This document shows positions 12,048-51,481 of a stretch of 64,000 nt of DNA, piece after piece. This DNA comes from Sulfurovum sp. TSL6 (GTDB lineage: Bacteria > Campylobacterota > Campylobacteria > Campylobacterales > Sulfurovaceae). Under the pieces are notes generated by a model, which worked only from the letters and a program-made list of their open reading frames with translations, ran no database searches and was not told the origin of the DNA. How positions within the stretch are numbered: the first letter of the stretch is position 1; every line of letters starts with the position of its first letter. The DNA is taken from contig NZ_BPFJ01000001.1 in the NCBI RefSeq assembly GCF_019972115.1, positions 248,001 through 312,000 of the forward strand, in the 5' to 3' direction. A program made the position numbers and the translations under genes.

Positions 12048-12050
12048 GAA

Positions 12051-17342: not shown

Positions 17343-17386
17343 TTATCTTTATGGCTACTAAGACACAAAGAGTATCTAATTTTCTT

Positions 17387-18565: not shown

Positions 18566-18576
18566 ATTTGTCCTTG

Positions 18577-26196: not shown

Positions 26197-26637
26197 ATGA
26201 AAGAAATTAAAGAAAAACTGGAAGAAATTGTAGCACTGATGAACGATCCGGAAGAAACGGTATTGGAAAAAGAAGTGAAAGAAAAACTTGAATCAGTGAT
26301 GTCTCTTCTAAATAATCCTGAAGAAATTGAAATGGGTGAAAAAGAAACGAAAGAGAAATTAGAAGAGATTGTTGCACTTGTCAATAATGTGATGGTAGAC
26401 CCAGAGATCGATATTGAATATTGTATACCTGATGTAGCGACAACATCAGAGACTTGTGATGTTTCTGGAGATCCTTATATTTTAGCGACATATGTTGTGA
26501 GTGAATACACAAGACCGACACGTAAGATCCGTTTATCTGGTTCAAATATGCAAAATACACCAAAAGTGATAGCTGATTTGGTTACTTTCTCTATTGAACA
26601 ATTTAAAAGTGAGATAGACTCTGTAGAGATGGGTTAA
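26197..26637 (+). CDS. Hypothetical protein with three N-terminal helical repeats
   Basis: This 146-residue protein opens with three copies of a 23-24 residue unit of the form KEKLEEIVALMNDPEE, at about residues 5, 28 and 52. The copies are also similar in DNA, which suggests recent internal duplication. A globular, beta-rich C-terminal part follows (YILATYVVSEYTRPTRKIRL near 90). TTTTAGGAGAAATT gives a strong ribosome site. The repeats probably form short coiled helices. The function is unknown. Confidence 0.55.
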   Translation: MKEIKEKLEEIVALMNDPEETVLEKEVKEKLESVMSLLNNPEEIEMGEKETKEKLEEIVALVNNVMVDPEIDIEYCIPDVATTSETCDVSGDPYILATYVVSEYTRPTRKIRLSGSNMQNTPKVIADLVTFSIEQFKSEIDSVEMG

Positions 26638-28125: not shown

Positions 28126-28264
28126 TCCTGAATAGGGTTTAATATGGGTCTTGTCTTCTATATTTAAATTATATTCGATACTATTAGACACAAATTCATG
28201 TTTTTCAAAGAACAGATCGTACATAGTACTTTCTATTTGATAAACTTTATATCTACTGATAATG

Positions 28265-28322
28265 AATTTTAAATGTTTAATACACTGGAATTTAAAAATG
28301 TTTAATACACTTTTAGTGTATT
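28265..28322 (+). promoter_or_regulatory. Repeats and hairpin in the leader of the first oxidoreductase operon
   Basis: The motif TGTTTAATACACT occurs twice, each time after an AATTT/AAA tract (28265-28286 and 28289-28311, period about 25). The second copy also pairs with AGTGTATT to form an eight-base hairpin at 28304-28322 with a three-base loop. This lies 24 bases before the AAGGAG ribosome site, so it could act on DNA (operator) or RNA (leader hairpin). Confidence 0.45.
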
Positions 28323-28357
28323 TTTCGAAACTTTTTCATACATATAAGGAGTCAACA

Positions 28358-29071
28358 ATGACGAAAAGAGTAACAGAAGGTCCTGCTGGGTATATGCCAC
28401 AGTCGGCACCGGAGATGGGGGTAGAGCTTGCACCAGAAGGTTCAGCTTTACTTTATGGTGATGTTGTCACACCTGAAGAGGCAATGAGAGATGCTGCAAA
28501 AGCATTACTCACAAGGGACAACCCAACAATCTTCCCTGGTCCTCAAGTTCTATGGGACTGGAAAGATGATGTTGCAGATAAAGCAGCAGCAATTTTAGAT
28601 CTTGCATCTGAGATTCCAAACTGTAAAATCATTCCAATGCCAGATTACAGACCAAAATATCCAAAAATCGATGTGAAGGCTGAAATCAATCCAAATCACC
28701 CAAATCTAACGATCTTAGACAACAGAATCAAAGCATGTGTTTTTGTTGGTGTACATTGTCACTACGCTAACCTTTCACTTAGAATGATTCGTGCTGGTAC
28801 TGATTGTTACACAACTGCATTATGTGCTTATATGGGACATGAAGAAGCAATGGCATCAATTAGAGATCTACATGCATCAGACATTCAAAAGTTCAAAGAG
28901 ATCGTAATTGAAGAAAGAAACAAATTAGGAATTGAGTGGGAAACTACTCTACCACCTGAAAATCCATCTTTACAAAAAGAAGATTACAGTACATTATCAC
29001 CGGCTGATTATGGCGAGTATAGAAGTCTCATCATGACCAAAAAAGGTGAGCACGTTACTGAAGTCGAATAA
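28358..29071 (+). CDS. 2-oxoacid:ferredoxin oxidoreductase, fifth (E) subunit, copy 1
   Basis: This protein of about 237 residues belongs to the family named CO dehydrogenase beta-subunit-like, known as the extra subunit of five-subunit pyruvate or 2-oxoglutarate oxidoreductases in Aquificales. I set the start at ATG 28358, which has AAGGAG upstream; a longer frame from 28262 crosses the leader repeats. Conserved blocks shared with the copy at 49695 are TIFPGPQVL, DYRPKYPKID, EINPNHPNLTI and GVHCHYANL, the last with Cys and His that could bind metal. It has a C-terminal extension of about 40 residues that copy 2 lacks. It is first in an operon of five with 12-base gaps. Confidence 0.8.
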   Translation: MTKRVTEGPAGYMPQSAPEMGVELAPEGSALLYGDVVTPEEAMRDAAKALLTRDNPTIFPGPQVLWDWKDDVADKAAAILDLASEIPNCKIIPMPDYRPKYPKIDVKAEINPNHPNLTILDNRIKACVFVGVHCHYANLSLRMIRAGTDCYTTALCAYMGHEEAMASIRDLHASDIQKFKEIVIEERNKLGIEWETTLPPENPSLQKEDYSTLSPADYGEYRSLIMTKKGEHVTEVE

Positions 29072-29083
29072 AGGAGAAAATCA

Positions 29084-30268
29084 ATGGATGCAAGTCAAAG
29101 ACCACAATTAGATAAGAAAAAAGCAGATATAAATTATATACTTAAAGAGGCTCCGAGAGAGCAGCACTTTATTACAGGTGCGCAGGCAATGGCGGAAGCT
29201 GTTAAAAGAGCAAACGTAGATATGGCGATTGCGTATCCTATTACACCACAATCAGAGGTAATGCACCTTGTTGGTGATATTTATGCGCAAGGTCACATTA
29301 AAGAGTACTATAGAGCTGAAGAAGAGCTTGGTACTATGTCAGCTATCGCTGGTGCTGCAAGAGCAGGTGTTCGTCTATTTACAGCAACATCAGGACCAGG
29401 ACTTCTTAGAGGTCTAGAAGCGATCGTATCATGGTCAGGACATAGAGTTCCAGCTGTACTTGGTATCTTAACTCGTGTTGTAAATGCGCCGTTATCAATC
29501 CAGCCAGATAATATCGAAATGGCATACATGATGCACTGTGGTGCTGTAATGCTTCATGCTGAAAATCAGCAAGATACATTTGACTACACATTGGCAGCAT
29601 TTGCTATTACAGAAAAAGTTGATGTTTATATTCCAGTAGCTGTTGCAACAGAAGGTTTCTTCGTAACACACGCTAAGGGTTATGTTGATATGACAGCTGA
29701 CGATATTTGTCTAAATGACTTTGATCCAGTTGCAGCGCCAGTTCCAGCTATGGATAATGAAACTCCACCAGCTAGAATCCAGCGTGATGCTCCAGTTCAA
29801 AAGTCAAACTTCATGTCTTACTTGATTCACTCAGTATGGCAGCAAGAGATCTGGGATTCAAACAAGCGTGCGATGAAATATATCTATGAGTACCTTGGTG
29901 GACCAATCGAAGTTCAAAACCCTGAAGCAGATGTATTTGTTCTTGGTTCTGGTTGTGCAGCAGCACAATGTAGAGAAGCGCACAGATATGCTCAAGAAGA
30001 TGGACTAAGTGTTGGTTTCGTTAAAGTAAAAGCGATCAGACCATTCCCAACTCAAGAGATCAGAGATGCATTGAAAAATGCTAAAGCAGTAATCGTTCCT
30101 GAACACAACATTATTGGTTGGTTATGTAAAGAAGTTAAAGCAGCTATTCCAAATGGTGGAATCGTTGTAGAGGGTCCAAGAGTATATGGTGGTATGACAC
30201 TTCCAGTGGAATTGATCATGAAAGAAATTCATACTGCTCTTGGCCTAGAGTATGATCTAAAACTATAA
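29084..30268 (+). CDS. porA: 2-oxoacid:ferredoxin oxidoreductase alpha subunit, copy 1
   Basis: This 394-residue alpha chain carries the pyrimidine-binding and transketolase-C-like domains. It shows the substrate motif AYPITPQSE near residue 50, EEELGTMSAIAGAARAG near 87, TSGPGLLRG near 106 and, in the C-terminal part, VKVKAIRPFP. The enzyme joins CO2 to acetyl-CoA or succinyl-CoA with reduced ferredoxin (or runs in reverse). The sequence alone does not tell me whether the substrate is pyruvate or 2-oxoglutarate. It is the second gene of an E-alpha-beta-gamma-delta operon. Confidence 0.85.
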   Translation: MDASQRPQLDKKKADINYILKEAPREQHFITGAQAMAEAVKRANVDMAIAYPITPQSEVMHLVGDIYAQGHIKEYYRAEEELGTMSAIAGAARAGVRLFTATSGPGLLRGLEAIVSWSGHRVPAVLGILTRVVNAPLSIQPDNIEMAYMMHCGAVMLHAENQQDTFDYTLAAFAITEKVDVYIPVAVATEGFFVTHAKGYVDMTADDICLNDFDPVAAPVPAMDNETPPARIQRDAPVQKSNFMSYLIHSVWQQEIWDSNKRAMKYIYEYLGGPIEVQNPEADVFVLGSGCAAAQCREAHRYAQEDGLSVGFVKVKAIRPFPTQEIRDALKNAKAVIVPEHNIIGWLCKEVKAAIPNGGIVVEGPRVYGGMTLPVELIMKEIHTALGLEYDLKL

Positions 30269-30280
30269 GAAAGGTATAAA

Positions 30281-31177
30281 ATGAGCTTAAAATATATAAC
30301 TCCAGCAGAGAGATTTAAAAAATATTTACCAAAAGATTATGTAGAGTTAGTTGACTACGGTCCGTTTGGAAAGACTCAAGATGAAGCTGGTCCAGGTAAC
30401 ATGGGACAGTTTAAAGAGTTAATGGAAGAACACCCAATGTGTTCTGGTTGTTGGATGGCGTATTACATCAGATTGATCTTCGCTTCACTTCCACAACCTG
30501 AAGAGACTGTAACATTAGGTACAGCTGGATGTGGTCGTTTGGCTATTTCTCAAGCAGCTGTTCCATTTATCTATGGTAACTATGGTGACCAAAATGCTAT
30601 GGCTTCTGGTCTTACACGTGCATTTAGACTACGTTTCCCAGATAAACATAAAGACGTTATCACTATCGCTGGTGACGGTGGTACTATGGATATCGGTTTC
30701 TCTATGACTATGCACTCATGGATCCGTGGTGAAAAATTCACAACGATCATGCTTGATAACGAAGTTTACGGAAACACTGGTGGTCAAGAGTCTGGTATGT
30801 CTCCTAAGGGTGCTATCCTTAAGATGGCTCCACTAGGTAAAAAAGGTGAGAAAATGCCTGCAACTGATTTAGCAAAAGCTGCTGGTTGTGTGTATACTGT
30901 TAGAATGTCTCCAACGAACATCAAAAAAGCTGCAAAAATCATCAGAAGAGCGATCTTTGTTGCTAGAGAAGTTGGACCAACGTTTATTCACGCGTATACT
31001 TCATGTAACATTGAGTACTCTATTCCTACTGAAGATGTATTTGCGGATGCAAAAGAGAAAGAGAAAACAAGATTCCAGTTTGAAGAGTACATGACTGATG
31101 AAGCTAAAGCTGTAATCGAACGTGTAGAAGCTGAAGAAAAAGCGGCTAAAAGAGCAAAAAAAGCAGAGGTGGTTTAA
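30281..31177 (+). CDS. porB: 2-oxoacid:ferredoxin oxidoreductase beta subunit (TPP-binding), copy 1
   Basis: This 298-residue thiamine-diphosphate subunit has four candidate 4Fe-4S cysteines: C-SGC in HPMCSGCWMAYYIR near 50, one in TAGCGRLAIS near 83 and one in YTSCNIEYS near 239. The TPP motif is GDGGTMDIGFS near 127 followed by DNEVYGNTGGQESG. The position after CXXC is Trp (CSGCW), where typical members have Gly. The C-terminus is a Lys/Ala/Glu-rich tail. The gene starts 12 bases after alpha. Confidence 0.87.
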   Translation: MSLKYITPAERFKKYLPKDYVELVDYGPFGKTQDEAGPGNMGQFKELMEEHPMCSGCWMAYYIRLIFASLPQPEETVTLGTAGCGRLAISQAAVPFIYGNYGDQNAMASGLTRAFRLRFPDKHKDVITIAGDGGTMDIGFSMTMHSWIRGEKFTTIMLDNEVYGNTGGQESGMSPKGAILKMAPLGKKGEKMPATDLAKAAGCVYTVRMSPTNIKKAAKIIRRAIFVAREVGPTFIHAYTSCNIEYSIPTEDVFADAKEKEKTRFQFEEYMTDEAKAVIERVEAEEKAAKRAKKAEVV

Positions 31178-31178
31178 T

Positions 31179-31889
31179 ATGGCTGAGCAAAAGAAAAGAG
31201 AACGATATAATATTAGAATCTCAGGACTAGGTGGGCAGGGTGTTGTAACTACTGCTCACATCCTTGGTTCTACTATGGATAACGCAGGTAAATATGCATC
31301 ATTGGTACCATTCTTTGGTTCTGAAAAAAGAATGGCACCTGTTGAAGCATATGTACGTGCTTCTAATCAACCGATTTATGAAGTGGGTGAAGTTGTTTAC
31401 CCTGACATTATTATGATCTACCACTCACAAGTTGTTACACATGGTAAATCATATACAATGCCTTTCTATACTGGCCTAAAGCCGAACAGTTTGATCATTA
31501 TCAATACTGATTTTGATGTTCTTACTGAAGACGATATTACCGTTCTTGAAGAGCTAAATGCAACTGTTGTACAATTTGATGCAACAGCATTGGCACTAAA
31601 AATTGCAGGTACTGAACTTGCAACGAATATGGCAATGATGGGTATGCTTCTTGGTCTTACAAAACTTGTAACAACTGAAAACATTGAAGCAGCGGTAAGA
31701 GAAAGATTCTTGGGAACTTCATTCGTTTCTTCTGGTGGTACAGCTATGCTGGATTCTGCTATTGAGAAAAAGTTTAAGAAAAAAGAACAATTACTTGAAG
31801 CGAATATGAACGTTATCAATAAAACTTTTGAGATGGCTGACTCTGTAGATATCAGTGGATCTGAACTAATTGTCAGATTTGACATATAA
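31179..31889 (+). CDS. porG: 2-oxoacid:ferredoxin oxidoreductase gamma subunit, copy 1
   Basis: This 236-residue gamma chain has the family's N-terminal SGLGGQGVVTTAHILG near residue 14, then FFGSEKRMAPVEAYVR and a conserved TELATNMAMMGMLLG near 142. The gamma subunit packs against alpha and helps bind coenzyme A. The start lies one base after the beta stop. It is more distant from copy 2 in the C-terminal 30 residues than in the N-terminal half. Confidence 0.85.
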   Translation: MAEQKKRERYNIRISGLGGQGVVTTAHILGSTMDNAGKYASLVPFFGSEKRMAPVEAYVRASNQPIYEVGEVVYPDIIMIYHSQVVTHGKSYTMPFYTGLKPNSLIIINTDFDVLTEDDITVLEELNATVVQFDATALALKIAGTELATNMAMMGMLLGLTKLVTTENIEAAVRERFLGTSFVSSGGTAMLDSAIEKKFKKKEQLLEANMNVINKTFEMADSVDISGSELIVRFDI

Positions 31890-31901
31890 GGAAGGAATTA
31901 A

Positions 31902-32126
31902 ATGTATTATGTAGCAAAAGTAGACGCAGACAAGTGTGCTGAATATAAATGTAACACGTGTACTTTATATTGTCCAGAAGCGAATACGCTTATGTTCGAT
32001 AAAGAAGGTAACACATCTTGGGTAGATGAAGATAGATGTAAAGGGTGTGCACTTTGTGTATACGTTTGTTCTGACATGCTTGATCGTAATTGTATTACAA
32101 TGGAAATGGCTGGTCACGAAGAGTAA
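31902..32126 (+). CDS. porD: Ferredoxin-like delta subunit of 2-oxoacid oxidoreductase, copy 1
   Basis: This 74-residue protein has two 4Fe-4S motifs: C12-X4-C17-X2-C20-X3-C24-P and C46-X2-C49-X2-C52-X3-C56. The first motif has four residues where CX2C is usual. It carries electrons between the TPP site and external ferredoxin. The protein is identical, residue for residue, to the product at 49427, while the DNA differs at about a dozen silent sites. It is last in the operon, and a terminator follows 14 bases later. Confidence 0.88.
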   Translation: MYYVAKVDADKCAEYKCNTCTLYCPEANTLMFDKEGNTSWVDEDRCKGCALCVYVCSDMLDRNCITMEMAGHEE

Positions 32127-32443: not shown

Positions 32444-33700
32444 GTGAAAGTTACAGTAGAAAAAGTAGATGATATAAACTACATTATAAGTGGTACAGTT
32501 GAGAACAGTGTGATTGAAGACAAGGTTGCTAAACTTAAAGAAGAAGCAGCCAAAAAGCCCAATGATGAAAAGTCTACAGATGAAAATATTGAACAGGATG
32601 CAGCAGGACAAGTCTTTCAAGACTTTATCAGTGCTGGAATTAAAGAAGGTAATTTAAATGTTGAAAATCTTTTGGGGCAACCTGGGCTTAAAAAATATGA
32701 GCAACAAGATGATTCCATTTACTTTGAAGTAGAAGTAGCGGTGAGCCCTGAAATCGATGTAGACATTGATTACAAGGATATCGCACCGACTTACACAAAA
32801 CCTACGGCAAGCCCTGAAGCTGTAGAAGCTAAACTTGCAGAATTCGCTCAAAAACAAGCACCATTTACCAAGCTAGATGAACCAAAGCCTATTGAAAATG
32901 GTGATGTTGCTGTGATCGATTTTACAGGGTATATTAATGGTAAACCTTTTGAAGGCGGTAGTGCAGAGAAGTTTAATATTCAAGTGGGTTCCAACAAGTT
33001 TATTCCAGGATTTGAAGAGCAGCTTGTAGGTATGGAATACGGCGAAGAAAGAGATGTTATCGTCACCTTTCCAAAAGATTATTCAGCAGATGATTTAGCG
33101 GGTAAAGAAGCTAAATTTGTTGTAAAACTGCATGAAATTCAGGAGCAAAAACCAGAGACGATAGATGATGCTTTTGCAAAAAAAGTATTAAATAATGAAA
33201 CAGCAACAGTTGAGACACTGAAGAAACAATTTGCAGAACAAACCACTGCTGAAGAACTGTCACAAATTTATATGCGTGAACTTAAGCCAAAAATTGTTGA
33301 AGCTTTACTTGAAAAATTTGATTTCACCTTACCTAATAACATCGTAGAACAAGAGATCGATGCAAAAGTCCGTGAAAAGACAAGAGGATTCAGTGAAGAG
33401 CAACATAAAGCGTATATGGAGGACAAGGGTAAATTTAAAGAGCTTAGAGAATCTGTACGTGATGAAGCAAGAAAAAGTATCAAGTTGGCGCTTATAGTTG
33501 AAGCCTTAGCTAAAAAAGAGGGTATTGATGTACATGAACAAGAGGTCATTGCTGCACTAGGATACCAAGCTACGATGACAGGTCAAGATCCACAGGCATT
33601 ATTAAAGTACTACCAAGATAACAACTTGATGACATCAGCGAAAATGGGACTCACAGAAGATAAACTGTTTGGGCATATACTTGGGTTTCATAAAGCATAA
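32444..33700 (+). CDS. tig: Trigger factor, ribosome-bound chaperone and prolyl isomerase
   Basis: This 418-residue protein has the three expected parts: a ribosome-binding N-domain (about 1-130), an FKBP-type isomerase domain from NGDVAVIDFTGYINGKPFEG (about 148-235), and a helical C-domain ending at about 410. The start is GTG 32444 with AAAGGA seven bases upstream. The usual ribosome-contact GFRxGKxP loop of the N-domain is not evident; in its place lies an acidic stretch, EAAKKPNDEKSTDENIEQD (about 34-52). It folds nascent chains at the ribosome exit. In many bacteria tig is followed by clpP; here an LRR gene follows after 17 bases. Confidence 0.9.
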   Translation: MKVTVEKVDDINYIISGTVENSVIEDKVAKLKEEAAKKPNDEKSTDENIEQDAAGQVFQDFISAGIKEGNLNVENLLGQPGLKKYEQQDDSIYFEVEVAVSPEIDVDIDYKDIAPTYTKPTASPEAVEAKLAEFAQKQAPFTKLDEPKPIENGDVAVIDFTGYINGKPFEGGSAEKFNIQVGSNKFIPGFEEQLVGMEYGEERDVIVTFPKDYSADDLAGKEAKFVVKLHEIQEQKPETIDDAFAKKVLNNETATVETLKKQFAEQTTAEELSQIYMRELKPKIVEALLEKFDFTLPNNIVEQEIDAKVREKTRGFSEEQHKAYMEDKGKFKELRESVRDEARKSIKLALIVEALAKKEGIDVHEQEVIAALGYQATMTGQDPQALLKYYQDNNLMTSAKMGLTEDKLFGHILGFHKA

Positions 33701-34461: not shown

Positions 34462-34866
34462 ATGCCTTATGATTCAGTTGACAGACCTTCCATAGAGAGA
34501 ATGGTACGTGAGTTTTATACTGATGTACTTCAAGATGATATCCTAGGTCCTATCTTCACTAAAGCTCTGGGAGATGATCTGACAAATGGTAAATGGTATG
34601 AACACCTTAACACCCTATATAATTTTTGGATGCAGATGATGACAGGCGAGTCTCCGTATCAGGGACACCCTTTTCCTCCGCATGCATTTATAGGACCGCT
34701 TTACCGTGAAACTTTTGAGCGTTGGTTAGAACTTTTTCACGCGACAGTCTATCGGCTCTTCGTTCCTGAGATCGCCGATAAGTTTTATAAAAAAGCCAAC
34801 ATTCTGGCAGAGCAGTTTATGGACAATCTTGGTATGAATGATGAAGACGAAGATGAAGAGTACTAA
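34462..34866 (+). CDS. Group III truncated hemoglobin
   Basis: This 134-residue globin of the group III (Ctb-like) type shows the B-helix MVREFYTDVLQDDILGPIF, NTLYNFWMQMM, and HPFPPHAFIGPLYRETFERW, which includes the likely proximal His region. Family members bind O2 and NO and protect against nitrosative stress or moderate intracellular oxygen. The acidic tail ends DEDEDEEY. AGTAGGAGAGACA gives a strong ribosome site. It is followed after 55 bases by another small gene. A second globin gene lies at 40338. Confidence 0.88.
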   Translation: MPYDSVDRPSIERMVREFYTDVLQDDILGPIFTKALGDDLTNGKWYEHLNTLYNFWMQMMTGESPYQGHPFPPHAFIGPLYRETFERWLELFHATVYRLFVPEIADKFYKKANILAEQFMDNLGMNDEDEDEEY

Positions 34867-35407: not shown

Positions 35408-35851
35408 TTACTTTGCCGTCTTCGCTTTTATCACTGGGTTTTTCATCACAGCTGCCCGGACATCTTCATTTTCATCTATCATTAAGAGATCCAATGTCTC
35501 AGCGGGTGTACTTGTATTGACTGCAACAGAGGATCGAACATTTTCATCTTCATCTTTACTGAGTGTATTGAGTATCTCTACAGGTGTATTAGGATTTCCT
35601 GCGATCCAATAGGCAAGATCACTATCTTTACTTAATTCAACTAAAGTCTCCATAGGTGTATTTAAATGTTCTGCAACAAACTGTTTTACCAGAGGCGTTT
35701 CATCTTTACTCAAGTTCACTAATGTTTCTGCTGATGTGTTCATATGTGCAGCTACTCGTACGCGGACAAATGGATTGTCATCTTTACTTAATTGATCTAA
35801 AATCTCAGCCGATATATTTTCATCTTGTAAGAGTTCTAATGCGTTTGTCAT
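35408..35851 (-). CDS. Leucine-rich repeat variant (LRV/HEAT-like) protein
   Basis: This 147-residue protein consists of about five 24-25 residue helical repeats of the form NTPAETLVNLSKDEDENVR, the LRV/HEAT-like pattern (N-T-P-E-L-LSKD). It starts near residue 1 with ALELLQDENISAEIL and ends VIKAKTAK. It is probably a solenoid protein-binding scaffold. The start at 35851 has AAAGGTAACACAT upstream. It lies between unrelated small genes on the plus strand. Confidence 0.8.
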   Translation of the reverse strand: MTNALELLQDENISAEILDQLSKDDNPFVRVRVAAHMNTSAETLVNLSKDETPLVKQFVAEHLNTPMETLVELSKDSDLAYWIAGNPNTPVEILNTLSKDEDENVRSSVAVNTSTPAETLDLLMIDENEDVRAAVMKNPVIKAKTAK

Positions 35852-36024
35852 ATGTGTTACCTTTATCGTTTTTCATTTTTTTTAGCAATGAATTATTTGG
35901 ATGAATTGTAGCTTTTATATCTTAAATATTAAAGCATCATAGTATGCTCAAAAGTTTGAAATAGGGTTTTAAGTGAATTTACAATATGATGGCCTACAAA
36001 AATCCTAAAGGAAAAGAAAGATTA

Positions 36025-36399
36025 ATGGATACCACTATTGATATACACTTTAATGTAACACAAGAACAAAAAGAGACGATAGATTTAAGAGCGTCAGAAA
36101 ACGGGTTTGATGACATCTCTGCGTATGTGAAGGTCGTTGCACTTAAAACGCAGGCATTTACGCTTACACCTGCAGGTTCATCCACGGGAGAAGCATCTGT
36201 AGAACTTGGATTTAAAGTCACAGAGGCACAAAAAACGAAAATAGAAGAAAAGATGAAAGAGAGCGGTTGTGAAGACCTTACAAGTTATCTAAAATATGTT
36301 GCATTGCATGCAGTAGTTACGGCAGTCGTAGAAGTACGTTCAACTGGAGATTTTGATGCAATGTTAGCGCGTATTGCTAAAGCAAAGAGTAACGGCTAG
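36025..36399 (+). CDS. Protein with two tandem ribbon-helix-helix-like domains
   Basis: I prefer ATG 36025, which has AAGGAAAAGAAAG upstream, giving about 124 residues; a start at 35986 is possible. Two copies of the same unit are visible: IHFNVTQEQKETIDLRA..DISAYVKVVAL at about 5-42 and LGFKVTEAQKTKIEEKM..DLTSYLKYVAL at about 57-93. Each looks like a strand plus two helices, as in RHH/MobC-like DNA-binding proteins. RHH proteins normally act as dimers, so a fused pair could be a single-chain dimer. The function is inferred. Confidence 0.5.
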   Translation: MDTTIDIHFNVTQEQKETIDLRASENGFDDISAYVKVVALKTQAFTLTPAGSSTGEASVELGFKVTEAQKTKIEEKMKESGCEDLTSYLKYVALHAVVTAVVEVRSTGDFDAMLARIAKAKSNG

Positions 36400-36503: not shown

Positions 36504-39128
36504 ATGACAGAAACAGAAGCACTGGTCAAAGCAAATATTGAAAAACATAAGAAACTAGATGAAGATGATTGGGATGACGAATCCCTCATAGAGGCACAAA
36601 ACAATATAGAATTTGTGAAGCAATTCAAAGAAGAACTCTCTAAAGATCTTTTTGGACAAGAACAAGCGATCAATATTGTTGCCAACAGTATGAAAACCTC
36701 CATCAAAGACGAAAAAGGACCTAAGGCCACCTATCTTTTTTTAGGCCCCCCGGCTACAGGTAAGACCTTCCTTGCTGAACTGATGGCAGAACATATGCCT
36801 AAATATAAGATCATGAAGTTTGACATGACACAGTACCACCAGCAAAATGGTGGAGAGTTGTATGGTTATCCTGCCGGATGGAAAGGTTACGGTGTCGGTC
36901 AACTTACTGGATTTGTACACAGAAATCCTAAGGCTGTTATCGTACTTGATTCCTTTGAAAAGTGTGACAATGTCATTCAAAACAACCTTTTTTCCATATT
37001 TGAAGGTGGTAAGATGCGTGATGCATGTGGTTGGGACAAGATCACTGATGAACCGTGTAATGAAGATCCTGACATCATCTATAACGATGAAAATGCAAAC
37101 TACCTGGTGGACTTTACCGAGGCAATTTTTATTATTACGACAAGTGTAGGTAAAGAGCTTTACCAAGACTACAGGTTTCATGATTTGGTTGAAAAAGACT
37201 ATATTCAAGCCGAATCGATGATCCTTGAAGCCATAAAAAGAGAAAAGAAAAGAGAAAGTAGAAGTGGCGGTATCCAGGAAGCTATCGTACCGGAACTTGT
37301 TTCCAGATTTTCTAAAGCACATATTGTCTTGTTTAATAAGCTTGAGTATGATGCCTTTGAAAAAATATCCAAAAGGGTGTTTTTAAACTATAAAGATGAG
37401 TTTTATGACCAATATAAGATCGATTTTGTCGTAGGTAAAAATTTCGACAACTTTTTGAAAATACAGATGCTTAACTTTGCTCCAGAACTCGATGCAAGAC
37501 GTCTTAAAGAGAAAGTGAGCACCATCTTTTTTAACAGAATCACTGAATTCATGCAAGAAACAGACAAACCGATCATGAGTTTCAAGCAGATAAAAGTATC
37601 CCTGTCTAAAGAGGCTGTAGCATTTTTAAAAGAAAGGGTCAGTCCGCTTATTGAAAATGAAACACTCGTAAGAGAGTTGTTTAGGAAAAACACGACCCTT
37701 GATATCAATGATACCATCACCGAGAAAAACGGTATCATAACCTATAAGGTCAATTCATGCAAGTTTTCACAAGTGGTGAGGATCAAAGACTTCAGCGAAG
37801 ATGGTCTTGTTTTTGATATCCCTAATGTCTCTTTTGATGATATTGCAGGCCACCATAAAGCAAAGCAGAGACTAGGGGAGGTCATTAACTTCTTTAAAGA
37901 GCCAAAACTCTTGGAAAGTTTTAATATCGTACCACCAAAAGGTATGCTTCTTTATGGACCTCCAGGTACAGGAAAGACGATGCTTGCAAAGGCTTTTGCC
38001 AAAGAGGCGGAACTGCCTTTTATCTCGACTACGGGACTTGAACTGCTCCAACCTGAAAAGACAAAGTCAATCTTTACCAGGGCAAAAGCGTACGCACCTG
38101 CGATCATCTTTATTGACGAGATCGATACCATTGGAAGACGTGATGGAGAAAATGGCAGAGAAGTACCTATTAATAAACTCTTATCGGAGATGGATGGCTT
38201 TTCGGGCAGGAAAGGTGAAGACATCTTTGTGATTGCTGCAACCAACTACAAAGAAAATATTGATCCTGCCATTATCAGACCGGGAAGGGTAGAGATCCAT
38301 ATAGAGATCAACAATCTTGATAAAGATGCAAGACAGTACTTCCTGGACAAAGTAATTAATGACAAGCCTACAAGCGGTTTATTTGATATGCAAAAACTGC
38401 TCATGTATACCACAGGATTCACAGGTTCTCAACTTGAAATGCTAGGGAAAGAAGCTTCATACTACTGTTTACGTCATGGCTTGCCTGCAATCACCCAGGA
38501 TATTTTAATTGAGCAAATCAATACGATCAAATATGGTGAGAGACAGTCTTACCTATCGCTTGAACAGATGTTTGAAGAGACAGCGGTCTATGAAGCAGGA
38601 CGTGCAGTTATTTCTAAGACATTAATGCCTCATGTAAGTATTGAACATGTAAGTCTTACACCAAAAGACAATAATGAGCACTTTATTTCACGCAACTACA
38701 GTGATGTTCAAGAGAACATGACAGTAAAAGATTTTAAAGACAAAGTTTGTGTATCATTGGCAGGAAGAGCGGCCCAGATAAAACAGTTTGGTGAGATAGA
38801 AGGCATGGATTCAGGAGCTTCAAATGACTTACAGCAAGCTACACGTGATGCCTACGTTGCTATAGCCCATTATGGAATGGATAAAGAGGTCGGTTATATC
38901 AATATCAATGGTGTGATAGATGCACAACAAAAAACTGTTGCTAATAAAGACACAGAACACTATCATGAGAAAATAGACTTGGCACTTGAACGCTGGATGG
39001 ATGAAGGTCAAAAAACAGTGACTGATCTGGTAAATGAACATTGGAGTACTATAGAAAAGCTATCTAAAATACTGCTTCAAAAAGAGATCATTTATGAAGA
39101 TGAATTGGATGAGATAGTAGCTGGATAG
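36504..39128 (+). CDS. Hybrid AAA+ protein: ClpA/B-like module fused to FtsH-like module with degenerate zinc site
   Basis: This 874-residue protein holds two AAA+ units. The first resembles the ClpA/ClpB D2 or ClpX type: Walker A GPPATGKTF near 80 and Walker B AVIVLDSFEK near 143. The second is FtsH-like: SFDDIAGHHKAKQRL near 444, GPPGTGKTMLAKA near 484, IIFIDEIDTIGRRDG near 533 and the arginine region NIDPAIIRPGRVE. It continues into an FtsH M41 peptidase-like region, but the zinc motif HEAGH reads YEAGR (about 696-700), while the third ligand region GASNDLQQAT is kept. There is no membrane segment. It should be a cytosolic ATPase without protease activity, perhaps an unfoldase or remodeller. 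A perfect terminator follows. Confidence 0.8.
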   Translation: MTETEALVKANIEKHKKLDEDDWDDESLIEAQNNIEFVKQFKEELSKDLFGQEQAINIVANSMKTSIKDEKGPKATYLFLGPPATGKTFLAELMAEHMPKYKIMKFDMTQYHQQNGGELYGYPAGWKGYGVGQLTGFVHRNPKAVIVLDSFEKCDNVIQNNLFSIFEGGKMRDACGWDKITDEPCNEDPDIIYNDENANYLVDFTEAIFIITTSVGKELYQDYRFHDLVEKDYIQAESMILEAIKREKKRESRSGGIQEAIVPELVSRFSKAHIVLFNKLEYDAFEKISKRVFLNYKDEFYDQYKIDFVVGKNFDNFLKIQMLNFAPELDARRLKEKVSTIFFNRITEFMQETDKPIMSFKQIKVSLSKEAVAFLKERVSPLIENETLVRELFRKNTTLDINDTITEKNGIITYKVNSCKFSQVVRIKDFSEDGLVFDIPNVSFDDIAGHHKAKQRLGEVINFFKEPKLLESFNIVPPKGMLLYGPPGTGKTMLAKAFAKEAELPFISTTGLELLQPEKTKSIFTRAKAYAPAIIFIDEIDTIGRRDGENGREVPINKLLSEMDGFSGRKGEDIFVIAATNYKENIDPAIIRPGRVEIHIEINNLDKDARQYFLDKVINDKPTSGLFDMQKLLMYTTGFTGSQLEMLGKEASYYCLRHGLPAITQDILIEQINTIKYGERQSYLSLEQMFEETAVYEAGRAVISKTLMPHVSIEHVSLTPKDNNEHFISRNYSDVQENMTVKDFKDKVCVSLAGRAAQIKQFGEIEGMDSGASNDLQQATRDAYVAIAHYGMDKEVGYININGVIDAQQKTVANKDTEHYHEKIDLALERWMDEGQKTVTDLVNEHWSTIEKLSKILLQKEIIYEDELDEIVAG

Positions 39129-39227: not shown

Positions 39228-39620
39228 TTAGCCAATGTTCGGAGCAGTTTGTGCATCCCATTTGGAAATATGTTGTGTGTACCACTTTTTAAAATCTTTT
39301 TCCAAAAAACCTTGTAGCTCTTTTGGACCTTTAAGTATTTCCCATCGTTTATGAAACTTTTCTAATTTTTTTCTTATTGCATCATGATCGCTTTTGTGCA
39401 TCTGCATGTCTGAGTAATCACTTTGCTCCATCATATCTTCTTCTGTTTTAAAGTGAGTTTCTATTTCAGTTAAGAATCCTGGGAAGAGTTCGTCCACTTT
39501 TTCTACATCTTTGGCTTTCACAGCATCATAAAAGTTGTTGATCACTTCCATCTCATCTTCATGCAGCATATTCATCATAGCATTTGCCACTTGTTGTACA
39601 TCTTGTTGTTGAATTAGCAT
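39228..39620 (-). CDS. Bacteriohemerythrin-like oxygen-binding protein, copy 1
   Basis: This protein of about 130 residues starts at ATG 39620, with GGAG eight bases upstream. It has all the hemerythrin di-iron ligands: His in MMNMLHEDE, HxxxE in THFKTEEDMM, HxxxH in MHKSDHD and HxxxxD in QHISKWD. It reversibly binds O2 at a non-heme di-iron site and may store, carry or sense oxygen. It is a clear paralogue of the gene at 42606; both begin ML.Q..DVQQV.NAMMNMLHE. An FNR-type box lies upstream (39680-39693). Confidence 0.88.
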   Translation of the reverse strand: MLIQQQDVQQVANAMMNMLHEDEMEVINNFYDAVKAKDVEKVDELFPGFLTEIETHFKTEEDMMEQSDYSDMQMHKSDHDAIRKKLEKFHKRWEILKGPKELQGFLEKDFKKWYTQHISKWDAQTAPNIG

Positions 39621-39679
39621 TTTATCTCCATACAATTAGGTTTTTAAAAAAGATTATAGCTACAAAAAGTTTATACTTA

Positions 39680-39754: not shown

Positions 39755-40066
39755 CTAAACTTCCTCGATCAAGCATATTAGAGAAAAACCTTCTTTTTTG
39801 GCTTTTTCTTCAATCATCTCTGCTTTGGTTTGGGCTATTTCAAACATGTATCCGCCACAAAACCCTTCACCATTGGTTACGATCTCATGGGCAATGGCTT
39901 CTGCCTCTTCTAGATCTTTATGAAAGACCTCCTTGAGTATTCTCATACAAAATTCCCATGAAACGTGCTTATCATTAATGATAGAAACAAGGCACATTTT
40001 AGGTGCATTGAATTCTATCTTCAAGTAAGATTTGAGTGTAATGGGCTTTTTAATCGTTATTGGCAT
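39755..40066 (-). CDS. ClpS-like adaptor protein
   Basis: This 103-residue protein has the ClpS fold pattern: VSIINDKHVSWEFCMRILKEVF near 27-48, then GEGFCGGYMFEIAQTKAEMI, and LICLIEE at the end. ClpS hands N-degron proteins to ClpA. Asn and Asp of the IND motif are present. The His that in E. coli ClpS (H66, in AVHYQG) holds the substrate amino group appears to be Val here (EIVTNG), so N-degron binding may be altered. It could be a divergent paralogue serving another AAA+ protein. Confidence 0.75.
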   Translation of the reverse strand: MPITIKKPITLKSYLKIEFNAPKMCLVSIINDKHVSWEFCMRILKEVFHKDLEEAEAIAHEIVTNGEGFCGGYMFEIAQTKAEMIEEKAKKEGFSLICLIEEV

Positions 40067-40337
40067 AGTGTTCCTGTATGATCTAAAGATAATTCATAGT
40101 TTAGTATTATACCCAAAAAAACTATAGGTTACTTCGTACGAGTTCTATGATGTATATTTGACACAGCTGATACAGATGAAAAGAATGTTCTAGTTTTTTA
40201 TAAATCCTGCTATAATTCCATTTCAAAAAAAAGCATCTTTTTACCTTGACTATACTTGTGTTTACAGATGGTTTGTACAAAAAGGATGAAGTATAGAACT
40301 TCAAAACAGTATTACTAGAGAAAACCTTAGAATCTTG

Positions 40338-40676
40338 ATGACTTTGTTTTATGAAAAAGCTATAGAGGATGAAGTATTAGCTCCTTTTTTCATAGATGAG
40401 ATCGGTGATGATCTTACTGATGAGGACTGGTTTGAACACATAGATCTTTTAGCAGATTTTTGGTTGGCTAAAATTCTAGGGGAAAACACTTATTATGGAA
40501 ATTTTGTGGGTGCACATGTAAAGATGCCTCATTTAAAAAGAGAAACTTTTACAAGGTGGCTGGAGCTTTTTTCAGTCACGGCTGATGAAGTCTATGTACC
40601 TGATATCGCGGAAGTGTTTAAGAAAAAAGGGGAACAGTTCTCTAAGCAGTTCCTCAATACTAAAAAAAAGATTTAA
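40338..40676 (+). CDS. Group III truncated hemoglobin, copy 2, with unusual 5' end
   Basis: The frame from ATG 40338 gives 112 residues with LFYEKAIEDEVLAPFF, LLADFWLAKILGENTYYG, HVKMPHLKRETFTRWLELF and FKKKGEQFSKQF, a group III truncated globin. Its N-terminal helix is not complete at that ATG. The same frame is open upstream to 40290 and encodes IELQNSITRENLRI, which matches the family. There is no ATG, GTG or TTG to start it, but an ATA at 40293 has AAAAAGG seven bases upstream. Either a rare start codon is used, or one extra A near 40294 has put ATG 40286 out of frame. The likely role is NO or O2 binding, as for the copy at 34462. Confidence 0.7.
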   Translation: MTLFYEKAIEDEVLAPFFIDEIGDDLTDEDWFEHIDLLADFWLAKILGENTYYGNFVGAHVKMPHLKRETFTRWLELFSVTADEVYVPDIAEVFKKKGEQFSKQFLNTKKKI

Positions 40677-40733
40677 ATACATTTTTTGAATACTTTATTT
40701 TAAAAGTATATATTTTTGAATCAAAGGAAAAGA

Positions 40734-41114
40734 ATGAATAGAGATAAAAAATGGAATTTGCTTTTCATCCAAGATGACAGATCGATGTTTGATTCTGGTA
40801 CTAAAATGTTCAGTGCATTGTTCAATAGGGTAGACAAAGTTTCGGGAAAAGAAGAGGCGCTAGCGCATTTTGATGCAAACCAATATGATATTGTTCTTGG
40901 TGATCTCAGCGTCGAACCGGAAGATCTTGGTCTTTTAAAACAGATCAAAGACATGAAACCTGAACAAACAATATTTGCTTTAGTTTCACCCAAAGATACA
41001 GATAAACTTTTTGGGATAGCTGACTTGGGGATCAATGCCTTTGAATTGACAGCAGATTACTTTGATCAAGCCTTGGAACAAATTGCATTATTCGACCCTT
41101 ACGCAAAGCAATAA
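40734..41114 (+). CDS. Stand-alone receiver-like protein, atypical response regulator
   Basis: This protein of about 126 residues starts at ATG 40734 with AAAGGA upstream. It follows the receiver fold: LLFIQDDRSMFDS (acidic pair DD), then DIVLGDLSVE (phospho-acceptor Asp), then FALVSPKD (Ser). The conserved Lys of the fifth strand (normally YLxKP) is missing, since that region reads INAFELTADYF. It has no output domain. It could be a phospho-sink or a pseudo-receiver. It lies 57 bases after the second globin gene. Confidence 0.7.
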   Translation: MNRDKKWNLLFIQDDRSMFDSGTKMFSALFNRVDKVSGKEEALAHFDANQYDIVLGDLSVEPEDLGLLKQIKDMKPEQTIFALVSPKDTDKLFGIADLGINAFELTADYFDQALEQIALFDPYAKQ

Positions 41115-42605: not shown

Positions 42606-43007
42606 ATGTTAATGCAAAAACGAGATGTACAACAAGTATCAAATGCTATGATGAATATGCTGCATGAAGAAGAGATAGATATAATAAATGATTTTCATGA
42701 TGCTGTTTTAGCAGAAGATATAGAAAAAATTGATGAGCTTTTTAAAGTAGTTCAGTTTGATGTAGAGGATCATTTTAGTACGGAAGAAGAGATGATGGAA
42801 CAGAGTAAGTTTTATGCTTTTCAAATGCATAAATCTGAACATGACACTATGAGACAAAAAATAAAAAATATTCAAGAAAACTGGGAAAATAATAAAAATC
42901 CACAGGAAGTACAAAAATTTTTAGAAAATGAGTTCAAGCATTGGATTGTTTTGCATATTTCAAGATGGGATTCGGAAACTGCTATGCATATTGGTGATTC
43001 TAATTAG
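42606..43007 (+). CDS. Bacteriohemerythrin-like oxygen-binding protein, copy 2
   Basis: This 133-residue paralogue of the gene at 39228 keeps every di-iron ligand: LHEEE, DHFSTEEEMM, MHKSEHD and LHISRWD. TTTTAAGGATATAGA gives the ribosome site. It has its own promoter with a perfect FNR-type box, so it is probably induced at low oxygen. It is more AT-rich than copy 1. It may scavenge or store O2 to protect the oxygen-sensitive oxidoreductases. Confidence 0.88.
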   Translation: MLMQKRDVQQVSNAMMNMLHEEEIDIINDFHDAVLAEDIEKIDELFKVVQFDVEDHFSTEEEMMEQSKFYAFQMHKSEHDTMRQKIKNIQENWENNKNPQEVQKFLENEFKHWIVLHISRWDSETAMHIGDSN

Positions 43008-43481: not shown

Positions 43482-46364
43482 CTATGAGAGCTCTTTTATT
43501 ACTTTAAAATCGCCAGATTCATAAGAGTAGACCTTTTTAGCCTCTTTATCAATAATCACCGGACGGATCCACTCATTTAAAATAAACTCTTTTGCTATAG
43601 AGTTTTCCACTGCTTTTCCTACTTTTTCCAAAGGCGCTTCCATAAATGTTAGAAGTCTTACCGGTTCATGATATGCTTTACCTTCCAAATGGACTGATTG
43701 GGTAGGCAGACCGATCTTAAGATCACTGTAATTACCATTATAGACACCGATTTTTCCAACCACATTGTGATAGACTTTAGAACCTGCTCCATAAATGGCA
43801 TTATCTACAGTAGAAAAATAGTGTTCCATATTGATCCATTCTCCTACAATGAGTGGCCCGTCAAAGATACGGGTAAGGATATCAGCATTGTCATTATCTA
43901 CCTTCCAGTCATAAGAATGCATAAAAAACCTATTGTTCATCTTTACATGTTTTGTGGAGCTTCTAGGTCCTGCAAAGGCTCCCATATTACCTGCCAGTCC
44001 CCATTCAGGCCTAGGCTCAGACCAGTCCATAGATTTGATCATCACATCTTCTTGTGTATGCGTATAGGGAAGCGCTTCTATTCTTTCTTCTCTGGACATA
44101 AGAGATGCTTTGTTAAAGTCGTGCATGATTTGGAAAAATTGAGGCATCTCTTCGGCTGTCAGAATATCTGTATCATAGTATTTGATCTCATCTGTGGTAG
44201 TAATGTGCAACCCTGGTATGAATTTTGTACTATCAGGGATGACAATACCTTTTTCTTTTAATGCTTCACGTACCTCTTTGGTATTGGCTATCATACACAG
44301 TGCTCTTGTGTTTGGAAGGGAGATGTTTCCTCCACATGCGCCACAATCAAGTGCTGATTCAAATGGATTGTTATCCGAAATACTTCCGTGACCGATGATG
44401 GTGACAAACTGAGGGAAATTATCCACCTGACCGATCATTGTCAAGTAGTTATGCAGATATTTGACTTTCTCTTCAAGTGTGAAACCGACCATCGAAAGCT
44501 TATGCTTTTGGAAGGTATAGTCTTCTTCTGTGATCTTGTATTCATTTTTGAGTTTTTCTACTAGCTCGCTAGACAACTCTATAGGTAGTTCCTGACCTAA
44601 AACAAGGTGATTTCTGATGGCTTGGATCTCTTCTGTTGAATACTCTTTTGAACCGCTACGTGCCAATACTTCACTGATGATGTGTGTATGAAGTTTATTG
44701 ACATACATCTCGATCTCTTCAGATGAGAGTTTATCTAATGTATAGGTTGTTTTTGGTTTTTGAGGCTTTAGTTTTGAAAAAAGCCTTTGTGTTCTTCTTG
44801 GTGAAAATGTTTTTCCAAAAAGATTGATACCGAAGATCCAGCCGATCGCCTCAACCATAATATAGGGTGTATATGGGTTGTTTTTGAGATCGCTTAGGAC
44901 TTTTTTAGTCGTTTTATTCATCCCTTTTTTGGAACTATAGTCTTCATACAACTCTTTTGGTATTTCAAATACTATATTTTCCGATTTTACAATTGCCGGC
45001 GATAAAAAGAGTTCATGTGATTTATCAAACTCGACAAATGCGATCGGAAGACCTAAAAACCCACCGGCACCATAGGTTTCGTATGGACCGCTACTTTCAA
45101 TCTGTCTCCTTATCACTTCAGATCTTACATCCAAACAGAATGTAGCAGAAGCTACTGCTTTTTCATTTTCTTCTTCTTGTACACTGGTAAACTCATCGAC
45201 ATAAGAACGTATATAGCTGTCCTCAAGTGACTTAAGCCAGATATATCCTTCTTCTTCTCTTAGTGTCTCCATGATCTTTGCAAGTTCAGTAAGCGGTATT
45301 TCTGTGTTACCCAGATGATCACTTGCAAGGTGCACTTGCTTTGCATCCAGTTGAAGTACATACTGAGTATAGCTTTCTAAGATATCATCATAGTTCTGCT
45401 GATCTTCCATTGCATCGATGAATTTCCCAGGCAAGTTACCTTTATGTTTAAGTATTTTGAGTAAAACATAAGCGCAATTGTCTTGAATATAACTTCTTAA
45501 TTCTTTATAGTTATTGATCTTTCTGTTTTTTAAATACTTGAGTTCATAGTAAAATCTGATAGCTAAATAATCCATCAGGGAAGAAGGGTTCTGTTGTTGC
45601 GAATAATAGTTTGGATCTTCGGAACGATATTTGATAAATCCTGCCCAACCATGAAGTTTTAGTATGTGCTTAAGAAGGTTTCTCTCTATATCCTCATCTG
45701 TAACCTGTAGTTGTTCAAGTGCCTCTTTTACAAAGGTTTCAGAATCATGTGGATAGGCAAAGTTCTCATAGAGTTTAAATGTTTCAAACATTCCAAGATC
45801 TCTATTCGACATGGTAAGTGTCGTCTGTTCTTCATCTAAAAAACGTGAAACAAATTCGATCACTTCTTTTTCGATCATCTCTTTGTCATCTCTGTCAAAA
45901 AGGATGTCATTGATCTCATAAAGTGTCATGTGTTTTGTAAGTTTTTTGCGCCATTTCTCTTTATTATGATAGAAGAACTTTTCATCTAGGTATGTCAAAA
46001 GATCTTCATCGATCTCATGCTCTGTAATCGATGCAGAACTTCTGAAACTGTTCCATTTTGGATTGACTTCCAAGAGACATTTTTCAGCCAGATCGTAATA
46101 TTCTGCCAGGCCGTCGATCTCGAGAATTTCTTGCAGGTTCGACTTGAGAATGGCAGGATCGATTTTTCCTTCTTCATAGAGATTCAGATAATATGATGAT
46201 TCCATATACACTCTACCGCCGAAGATACTTTGGGCTTTATCAAGTCCCTCTTTAAAGTTAAGATGCTCAAACCCTTTAAGCGGATTATGATGAATGAATG
46301 AACCGATAGGCCAATAGTGCGGTACGGTATTTTTAACGGCATTTAGTTTTTCTAATATACTCAT
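43482..46364 (-). CDS. dabA: DabA, carbonic-anhydrase-like subunit of inorganic carbon transporter (DUF2309)
   Basis: This 960-residue peripheral protein works with DabB in energy-coupled uptake of inorganic carbon. DabA has a beta-carbonic-anhydrase-like zinc site, and the four expected ligand or catalytic residues are present: C410 and D412 in FCLDVRSE, H659 in IGHGS, and C674 in ALDCGACGG. The 15-residue His-Cys spacing matches that known for the Halothiobacillus DabA. Proteins of this length correspond to the longer DabA type. It is the last of three minus-strand genes and overlaps the gene before it by ATGA. Confidence 0.93.
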   Translation of the reverse strand: MSILEKLNAVKNTVPHYWPIGSFIHHNPLKGFEHLNFKEGLDKAQSIFGGRVYMESSYYLNLYEEGKIDPAILKSNLQEILEIDGLAEYYDLAEKCLLEVNPKWNSFRSSASITEHEIDEDLLTYLDEKFFYHNKEKWRKKLTKHMTLYEINDILFDRDDKEMIEKEVIEFVSRFLDEEQTTLTMSNRDLGMFETFKLYENFAYPHDSETFVKEALEQLQVTDEDIERNLLKHILKLHGWAGFIKYRSEDPNYYSQQQNPSSLMDYLAIRFYYELKYLKNRKINNYKELRSYIQDNCAYVLLKILKHKGNLPGKFIDAMEDQQNYDDILESYTQYVLQLDAKQVHLASDHLGNTEIPLTELAKIMETLREEEGYIWLKSLEDSYIRSYVDEFTSVQEEENEKAVASATFCLDVRSEVIRRQIESSGPYETYGAGGFLGLPIAFVEFDKSHELFLSPAIVKSENIVFEIPKELYEDYSSKKGMNKTTKKVLSDLKNNPYTPYIMVEAIGWIFGINLFGKTFSPRRTQRLFSKLKPQKPKTTYTLDKLSSEEIEMYVNKLHTHIISEVLARSGSKEYSTEEIQAIRNHLVLGQELPIELSSELVEKLKNEYKITEEDYTFQKHKLSMVGFTLEEKVKYLHNYLTMIGQVDNFPQFVTIIGHGSISDNNPFESALDCGACGGNISLPNTRALCMIANTKEVREALKEKGIVIPDSTKFIPGLHITTTDEIKYYDTDILTAEEMPQFFQIMHDFNKASLMSREERIEALPYTHTQEDVMIKSMDWSEPRPEWGLAGNMGAFAGPRSSTKHVKMNNRFFMHSYDWKVDNDNADILTRIFDGPLIVGEWINMEHYFSTVDNAIYGAGSKVYHNVVGKIGVYNGNYSDLKIGLPTQSVHLEGKAYHEPVRLLTFMEAPLEKVGKAVENSIAKEFILNEWIRPVIIDKEAKKVYSYESGDFKVIKELS

Positions 46365-47095
46365 GCGATAGTCCCTTTAAATCCAATAATACTTAAACCA
46401 AGTAGTGCGATAATAATAACAAAATGCATGATCTTCTCTTTGGATGTCAGATCAACATAGTGTAGATTGCTATTGGGAGTCCCAAATACAGTCTTTGGCA
46501 TCACTCTCATAGCTACCATAAAGTTACCAAAAAACAGTACTACTACCACGATATACCATAGGAGTGTTGTTTCCTCTTTTATCATACTGCTAAGTAAAAA
46601 GAGTGCATTAGGAAATGGTGGATAGAGTGCCAGTGTGATCAAATAGACTGTTAAAAAACCACCTACATATGGAGTGGCCAAGGTTGTACCACTGATTCCA
46701 TGATAATTGGCACTTCCATAGTATTTCTCATAATGTTTTGCTATGGAATAAATACCAGAGAGTGTGATCAATAGAGACAGACTGTAAAGTAGACCTTGCT
46801 CCCGTATAAACAACATGAAAAATGGTGCATTGATAAAGAGTAAATAGTAACCAAACTTATAAAAATTAGTTGTCTTGGTTACCTTATAGACAGAAAATAT
46901 CGCACTAAGTAATGAAATGATCACTAACAGACTAGAGTATTGACTATCTACAAATGAAGAGAGAACAATGGCACAAAACACTAAGAAACTGCTTATCAAA
47001 AAGATTTTCTCATTGTTTAGTTTTTTATTCTTTTCTAAAATGAGATAATAAGGTACTCCTGCAGCTAATATCAATAAAATTATACTCATTAACAT
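46361..47095 (-). CDS. Membrane protein between dabB and dabA
   Basis: This protein of about 244 residues has seven or eight predicted membrane helices. I prefer ATG 47095, with AAGAAGG seven bases upstream; a TTG at 47101 overlaps the dabB stop. The sequence around GISGTTLATPYVGGFLTVYLITLALYP has the Gly/Pro/Tyr character of proton-channel subunits of the NuoM/NuoN/Mrp family, but I cannot place it in a named family. Its position and overlaps with dabB and dabA point to a third DAB subunit or assembly factor. Confidence 0.65.
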   Translation of the reverse strand: MLMSIILLILAAGVPYYLILEKNKKLNNEKIFLISSFLVFCAIVLSSFVDSQYSSLLVIISLLSAIFSVYKVTKTTNFYKFGYYLLFINAPFFMLFIREQGLLYSLSLLITLSGIYSIAKHYEKYYGSANYHGISGTTLATPYVGGFLTVYLITLALYPPFPNALFLLSSMIKEETTLLWYIVVVVLFFGNFMVAMRVMPKTVFGTPNSNLHYVDLTSKEKIMHFVIIIALLGLSIIGFKGTIA

Positions 47096-47097
47096 AC

Positions 47098-49349: not shown

Positions 49350-49391
49350 ATCTATTGATTATGATGAATATAATTGTTCTAATCAATAGAT
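49350..49391 (+). promoter_or_regulatory. Perfect 12-base inverted repeat before second oxidoreductase operon
   Basis: ATCTATTGATTA at 49350-49361 and TAATCAATAGAT at 49380-49391 pair perfectly across an 18-base spacer that contains TATAAT. It lies about 35 bases before the first start codon. It could be a regulator site spanning the promoter, or an RNA hairpin. The rest of the 48712-49426 gap is AT-rich with no gene. Confidence 0.6.
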
Positions 49392-49426
49392 ATATGTTTA
49401 AATCATCATGGAGTAAAGGAGTTAAA

Positions 49427-49651: not shown

Positions 49652-49694
49652 GTCTAGAGTCTAGATTTAATTTAAAATTTTATTAGGAGAAGTT

Positions 49695-50264: not shown

Positions 50265-50277
50265 GTAGGAGATTATA

Positions 50278-51480: not shown

Positions 51481-51481
51481 C

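Follow-up and report, generated by a model that had tools for sequence, protein, structure and literature searches.

A chimeric Clp- and FtsH-type pseudoprotease that accompanies putatively oxygen-tolerant CO2-fixing enzymes in some deep-sea Sulfurovum and Sulfurimonas

The genome of Sulfurovum sp. TSL6 raises the question what an AAA+ protein, whose protease domain is devoid of its zinc motif, is doing between two operons for CO2-fixing enzymes. Both operons encode a five-subunit 2-oxoacid:ferredoxin oxidoreductase (POR/OOR), the first with the order CO_dh-like protein, alpha, beta, gamma and ferredoxin (positions 28262-32126, + strand), the second at 49355-53052 (+) of the stretch of 64,000 nucleotides that was analysed and is here called the window. 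The rTCA cycle is oxygen-sensitive, and to explain how autotrophs nevertheless run it in oxygenated water the five-subunit POR/OOR has been put forward: in 'Sulfurimonas pluma' the enzyme was suggested to be O2-tolerant and to let the cycle run in oxygenated water, it was found to be closest to that of Aquificales, and synteny of the operon was shown for Sulfurovum AR (PMC10066037), which is locus L062 in our set of relatives. The gene in between, gene A (36504-39128, +), encodes a fusion of a Clp-type AAA+, an FtsH-type AAA+ and an M41 pseudoprotease domain, and for a single chain in which a Clp-type ring is followed by an FtsH-type ring and an M41 chamber no description was found in the literature searched.

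Gene A is an open reading frame of 874 amino acids with an ATG start and zero internal stops. Pfam places AAA_2 at residues 73-270 (E 4e-23), AAA at 481-603 (2e-42) and Peptidase_M41 at 691-871 (3.5e-24), while in NCBIfam the ClpA model matches residues 33-176 (9e-30), aligned over its second AAA module, and the FtsH model (TIGR01241) residues 440-868 (2.8e-89) with 300.5 bits, which is below the curated equivalog cut-off of 600. These matches bear out the fusion of ClpA-like and FtsH-like modules postulated in the original prediction; in both databases only one Clp-type AAA module is recognised. This first module, D1 (residues 34-430; 36603-37793, +), was delimited by AAA_2 and the second module of ClpA, and shares with the second AAA module of the HSP100 proteins ClpA and ClpB the Walker A (GPPATGKT, 36744-36767, +, conserved among relatives), the arginine finger and sensor-2 regions and an aromatic pore-loop-like segment (GWKGYG, 36876-36893, +), in which the Trp is retained as GWxGY/F across all 40 distinct A proteins. 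Unlike ClpA and ClpB, A carries an FtsH-type second ring, and its D1 has a degenerate Walker B (VLDSFEK, 36942-36962, +), where Ser or Ala replaces the catalytic Glu in 40 of 40 distinct proteins (one row with ambiguous bases at this site). No N-domain is matched either; Clp_N is not among the Pfam matches shown for A and D1 is preceded by 33 residues only, and no ClpP-binding tripeptide of the IGF/IGL type was seen by inspection of residues 154-206.

The second module, D2 (residues 436-678; 37809-38537, +; Pfam, NCBIfam), is aligned with intact Walker A (GPPGTGKT, 37956-37979, +), Walker B (FIDEID, 38109-38126, +) and arginine fingers (RPGR, 38277-38288, +), and these motifs together with sensor 1 are intact in 40/40 A proteins. 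Because D1 is without the catalytic Walker-B Glu throughout its clade, ATP hydrolysis is expected of D2 alone; the loss in D1 had escaped the original prediction, and the double motor proposed there is probably a single one. With FtsH of E. coli and T. maritima, A shares the order and motifs of D2 and M41 at about 31-40% identity, including the AAA motifs of D2 and, in the segment of the third zinc ligand (GASND, residues 771-775; 38814-38828, +), the Asp. It differs from FtsH in the extra Clp-type ring in front and in lacking the membrane part, the periplasmic domain, the FVGVGA loop and HExxH. The pore loop FVGVGA of the genome's own FtsH corresponds to a clean gap of six residues after GLELLQP in A (GLELLQP-EKTKSIF, 38034-38075, +), and in the M41-derived domain (residues 679-872; 38538-39119, +) YEAGR (696-700; 38589-38603, +) stands in place of HEAGH, with the zinc ligands lost. 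No FtsH_ext was among the Pfam matches shown, and A is regarded as free of membrane helices because its highest Kyte-Doolittle score over 19 residues is 1.04 against 2.58 in the genome's own FtsH. Dead zinc site, missing pore loop and solubility had all been read correctly from the first inspection of the sequence. A single-chain structure model was of moderate quality (mean pLDDT 68, pTM 0.48), and the matches listed in a fold search with it were FtsH-family proteins and chains of the Ycf2-FtsHi motor (8xku/8xqw), with low TM-scores.

The losses might reflect a protease in decay, and a comparison within the family bears on this point. Full-length orthologues with 58-94% identity occur in 19 further Sulfurovum genomes, hence the reading frame is real, far beyond chance. 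Altogether A is present in 20 of 78 Sulfurovum genomes and in 24 of 228 genomes of Sulfurimonadaceae, the family which holds Sulfurimonas and Sulfuricurvum. A scan of genome contigs with two short, strict patterns, by which the active paralogues described below were missed, returned Sulfurovum, Sulfurimonas, Sulfuricurvum and two MAGs labelled Arcobacter, and under the same restriction no A was found in Aquificales. Among the 40 distinct proteins from Sulfurovum, Sulfurimonas and Sulfuricurvum HExxH is intact in none. YEAGR itself, the conservation of which had been suggested as a check, varies (YEAGR, YESGR, YQAGR, YEASR, YEAGH, REAAH, KEAAH, REASH, REAAQ, RESAQ); what is conserved is the loss of the first His, in two clades, one YEAGR-like and one R/K-EAAH-like. 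In pairwise comparisons dN/dS amounts to 0.03-0.06 overall and, within the M41 domain, to 0.04-0.13, with strong purifying selection that extends to every domain, so that the dead domain is kept for something and A is to be seen as a conserved pseudoprotease, probably with one working motor (D2), as judged from sequence. The view that A is a protease in decay and about to be lost finds backing in the lost zinc site and D1 Walker B and in the existence of homologues with intact HEAGH, the very homologues which the original prediction had anticipated as proof of a simple decayed gene. They do exist, but the conclusion fails: the inactive clade spans several genera with full-length and mostly open frames (a stop codon was met around the match in a few MAG copies), the same residues are lost throughout while the motifs of D2 are invariant, and the low dN/dS refutes decay in substance, leaving it hardly credible.

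The homologues with intact motifs are six relatives (L100, L113-L116, L232) of the same domain order in other genomes, which retain HEAGH as well as the D1 Walker B and are rarer than the inactive form. In those that were aligned, and in a further paralogue, B, the D2 pore loop is missing too, and its deletion is therefore old in the group. A tree of D2 and M41 unites the A proteins in a single group (support 0.99) to which neither the active forms nor B belong, the branching order among the three not being resolved; both active and inactive forms occur in genome G658. Since A is grouped apart from forms that keep HEAGH and the D1 Walker B, it is best read as a paralogue of a Clp-FtsH chimeric protease that became inactive and was co-opted for a different task. 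The idea that the active form is common in its family was rejected (one of 21 genomes of that family), as was phage- or plasmid-borne spread: a tblastn search with an active paralogue gave no record that covered 80% of it, the best rows being matches to the FtsH half, and a scan of viral contigs found Clp-like and FtsH-like pieces separately.

Four of the six active paralogues (L100, L113, L114, L116) adjoin DUF4062-NACHT/TPR, TIR or TrkA_N proteins, i.e., DUF4062/TIR/STAND-type genes resembling anti-phage systems, whereas L115 adjoins an ankyrin protein and L232 has no neighbour of the DUF4062, TIR or TrkA_N type. DUF4062 proteins were recently reported to be the NADases of an antiphage system (PMC13174449), and the four loci are candidates for a novel anti-phage system that includes an AAA+ protease of its own, the active-looking Clp-FtsH-M41 chimera. 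By this kinship, A itself might be a component of anti-phage defence, and a defence-island-like run does lie about 20 kb upstream of it in the window. In the loci examined, though, none of the genes beside A was recognised as DUF4062, TIR or STAND; its recurrent neighbourhood is metabolic and O2-binding, its co-occurrence is metabolic and its dN/dS is low, untypical of defence genes, and a defence role is considered quite improbable. The upstream run itself (3703-18607) holds an Orf5/HEC-06-like protein, an OLD/GajA-like ATPase and a weakly Cas4-like protein, followed by a four-gene condensin-like set (409, 200, 1274 and 299 aa) beside a tyrosine-integrase-like protein, an arrangement which is Wadjet-like by eye and gave no PADLOC hit.

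In the window A is directly preceded by a NikA-like ribbon-helix-helix protein (35986-36399, +) and, further upstream, by an LRV repeat protein (35408-35851, -; Pfam) and a truncated-haemoglobin-like protein (34462-34866, +; Pfam Bac_globin). It is followed by an adjoining hemerythrin (39228-39635, -), a second ClpS, ClpS2 (39755-40066, -), a second globin-like protein (40335-40676, +), recognised by resemblance to the first only, a degenerate response-regulator-like protein (40716-41114, +; below the Pfam cut-off) and a second hemerythrin-like protein (42606-43007, +), assigned by similarity to the first only. Of the 14 clade-1 loci with wide flanks, 13 have a hemerythrin near A, and recurrent neighbours in this clade are ClpS2, globin, LRV, NikA-like, SelO and response-regulator-like proteins. 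In clade 2 A is neighboured by a second trigger factor and an uncharacterised small protein, to which several genomes add a PP2C-kinase fusion, an MFS transporter and a protein of the nitrite/sulfite-reductase type. The second trigger factor of the window, TigF (32444-33700, +), is without the ribosome-binding loop GFRKGK of the genome's canonical trigger factor, as are all its aligned copies. Both clades repeatedly have, in the vicinity of A and the second trigger factor, a member of a small protein family without Pfam match (26197-26637 in the window; 12292-12981 of L044). At 43482-48711, a region that separates A from the second POR/OOR operon, inspection suggested a DabA/DabB-like pair for uptake of inorganic carbon, whose DabB-like member matches NuoL models.

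With hemerythrins, globins, a second ClpS, a second trigger factor and SelO as neighbours, A could be a general disaggregase or unfoldase for oxygen or redox stress in aerobic lineages, ClpB-like, with ClpS2 and TigF as co-chaperones and no special tie to POR/OOR; the same motifs would be retained by a chaperone with loose client specificity. Against this speaks that the presence of A matches that of the five-subunit POR/OOR nearly one for one, also where the two are unlinked, whereas only some of the A loci have ClpS2, globins or SelO nearby and only four of 14 clade-1 loci have TigF nearby, and that ClpB-like and ClpA-like proteins are already present in the genome. We regard a general stress role as a less likely, if serious, alternative.

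For this comparison porA of the five-subunit enzyme was searched in the same 78 Sulfurovum and 228 Sulfurimonadaceae genomes as A. In Sulfurovum 20 genomes hold both genes, none A only, one porA only and 57 neither (A in 20/21 with five-subunit porA vs 0/57 without; Fisher p 1e-17), and in Sulfurimonadaceae 22 hold both, two A only, three porA only and 201 neither (22/25 vs 2/203; p 3e-25), p-values which ignore kinship by descent among genomes and thereby overstate independence. The discordant genomes are incomplete (73-83%; the Sulfurovum genome with porA only is 78% complete) or, in one case (G600), 6% contaminated. Among genomes of good quality (at least 90% complete, at most 5% contaminated) the sets with A and with porA are identical, comprising 11 of 40 Sulfurovum and 15 of 139 Sulfurimonadaceae, and pooled, A is found in 26/26 with porA vs 0/153 without. 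In the complete chromosomes G663, G665 and G667 the two genes are roughly 0.6-0.8 Mb apart (in G663 the loci lie at 1.15 and 1.91 Mb), and they are also distant in G658; linkage is thus not the cause of their co-occurrence in these four chromosomes. Clade 1 of Sulfurovum is nearer to Sulfurimonadaceae than to clade 2 of Sulfurovum in A (0.22 vs 0.40) as well as in porA (0.12 vs 0.17), and this same departure from taxonomy suggests that both moved together. TigF, scored as copies at least 54% identical to it (canonical trigger factors have about 46-52%; some short fragments of 55% were left out), is present in 18 of 20 A-carrying Sulfurovum genomes vs 0 of 58 others.

Paralogue B served as negative control. 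It is a soluble AAA-M41 protein of about 450 aa (L002, G000:C1:706453-707796, - strand, and L028-L037), present in 33 of 78 Sulfurovum genomes, in which HEAAH/HEAGH is intact and the ATPase is degenerate (LEDID as Walker B, ATAE for sensor 1, APQK at the Arg fingers), and which, by its motifs, is possibly a live M41 protease with a dead ATPase. Another pseudo-M41 of the same genome is a membrane-type FtsH paralogue of 558 aa with YQAAK for HExxH (L005, G000:C1:588531-589526, -), and similar frames exist in many Sulfurovum genomes. As a mirror image of A, B lends some appeal to A as a regulator or scaffold, whose dead M41 ring and ATP-bound D1 would sequester substrates or present them to canonical FtsH, to ClpAP via ClpS2 or to B. 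ClpS2 does lie directly before A in Sulfuricurvum (L067, with ClpS2, A and hemerythrin head to tail), but was not found near clade-2 loci, and A is without a match to the ClpA N-domain, the usual docking site of ClpS. In ClpS the residues of the HNDD and IHEKDK sites have a role in the N-degron pocket. ClpS2 as an ordinary N-degron adaptor was dismissed, as its pocket looks changed (INDK and IVTNGE vs HNDD and IHEKDK in the genome's canonical ClpS); relatives show YDK, TDR or YNK at the INDK site, and one row keeping NDDY (L080) may be canonical. Plant FtsHi pseudoproteases, too, act in mixed complexes (PMC11266112). However, A and B show no association (nine genomes with both, 8.5 expected, p 0.80), whereby A and B as a complementary pair were rejected, and a regulatory or scaffolding role is unlikely.

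Among known systems, the plant FtsHi1-5 of the Ycf2-FtsHi import motor come close in that zinc ligands of M41 are lost (REAAV, WAAGR and similar forms; PMC11266112) and the motor is kept, and by its lost ligands and a fold under selection A is a pseudo-M41 of this kind. FtsHi proteins, in contrast, are membrane-bound, plastid-located and without a Clp-type module, and the losses would be independent. The FtsH of MoxR-vWA ternary conflict systems (PMC7159879) likewise carries two AAA+ modules per chain, the N-terminal one inactive and the C-terminal one FtsH-type and active, but there both modules are FtsH-type, whereas D1 of A is Clp-type with an intact P-loop and A carries M41; no MoxR or vWA genes were among the neighbours of A scanned. 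With the Rubisco activases Rca, CbbX and CbbQO (PMC4660213, PMC5437159) there is a functional analogy only, that of an AAA+ remodeller devoted to one enzyme of carbon fixation; the AAA+ subfamilies differ, and the target of the activases is proven while that of A is deduced from co-occurrence.

The reading we prefer, at what we would call an even chance, is that A works as a soluble AAA+ machine of pseudoprotease type, probably assembled as a double-ring hexamer, and is functionally part of the aerobic, five-subunit version of the rTCA cycle. A non-proteolytic remodeller, as offered by the original prediction, stays the best reading of its activity, and most likely it maintains oxygen-exposed rTCA enzymes, loosely like Rubisco activase. 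From the motifs, D1 would bind ATP without hydrolysing it and grip the client polypeptide by its aromatic loop, D2 as the sole motor would hydrolyse ATP and move the D1 ring, and the M41 ring would be a scaffold or docking plate and not a cutting chamber, the client being remodelled or partly unfolded and then released, not degraded. By gene content, the most likely client would be the five-subunit POR/OOR, a large Fe-S/TPP enzyme, or intermediates of its assembly. Direct action on this enzyme we infer from co-occurrence; A, with the trigger-factor paralogue as a holdase, would aid its assembly or its recovery after oxygen damage, much as activases serve Rubisco. The client of A could also be a different member of a set of oxygen-tolerance proteins (hemerythrins, globins, oxidases) that accompanies POR/OOR. 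More tentative, though well worth considering, is the wider notion that the rTCA cycle has an AAA+ maintenance machine of its own, in which A and a ribosome-free trigger factor assemble or repair the five-subunit POR/OOR as a functional counterpart of Rubisco activase for a different pathway of CO2 fixation.

The active form beside DUF4062/TIR/STAND genes and the inactive, metabolically linked form offer a natural series from AAA+ protease to remodeller. The chimeric A is found in some deep-sea Sulfurovum and Sulfurimonas, almost only in genomes with putatively O2-tolerant CO2-fixing enzymes, which it may specifically assist. An ATPase of chaperone type whose occurrence matches that of POR/OOR nearly gene by gene would supply a component so far missing from rTCA-based autotrophy in oxygenated water, and would make the problem amenable to co-expression tests.
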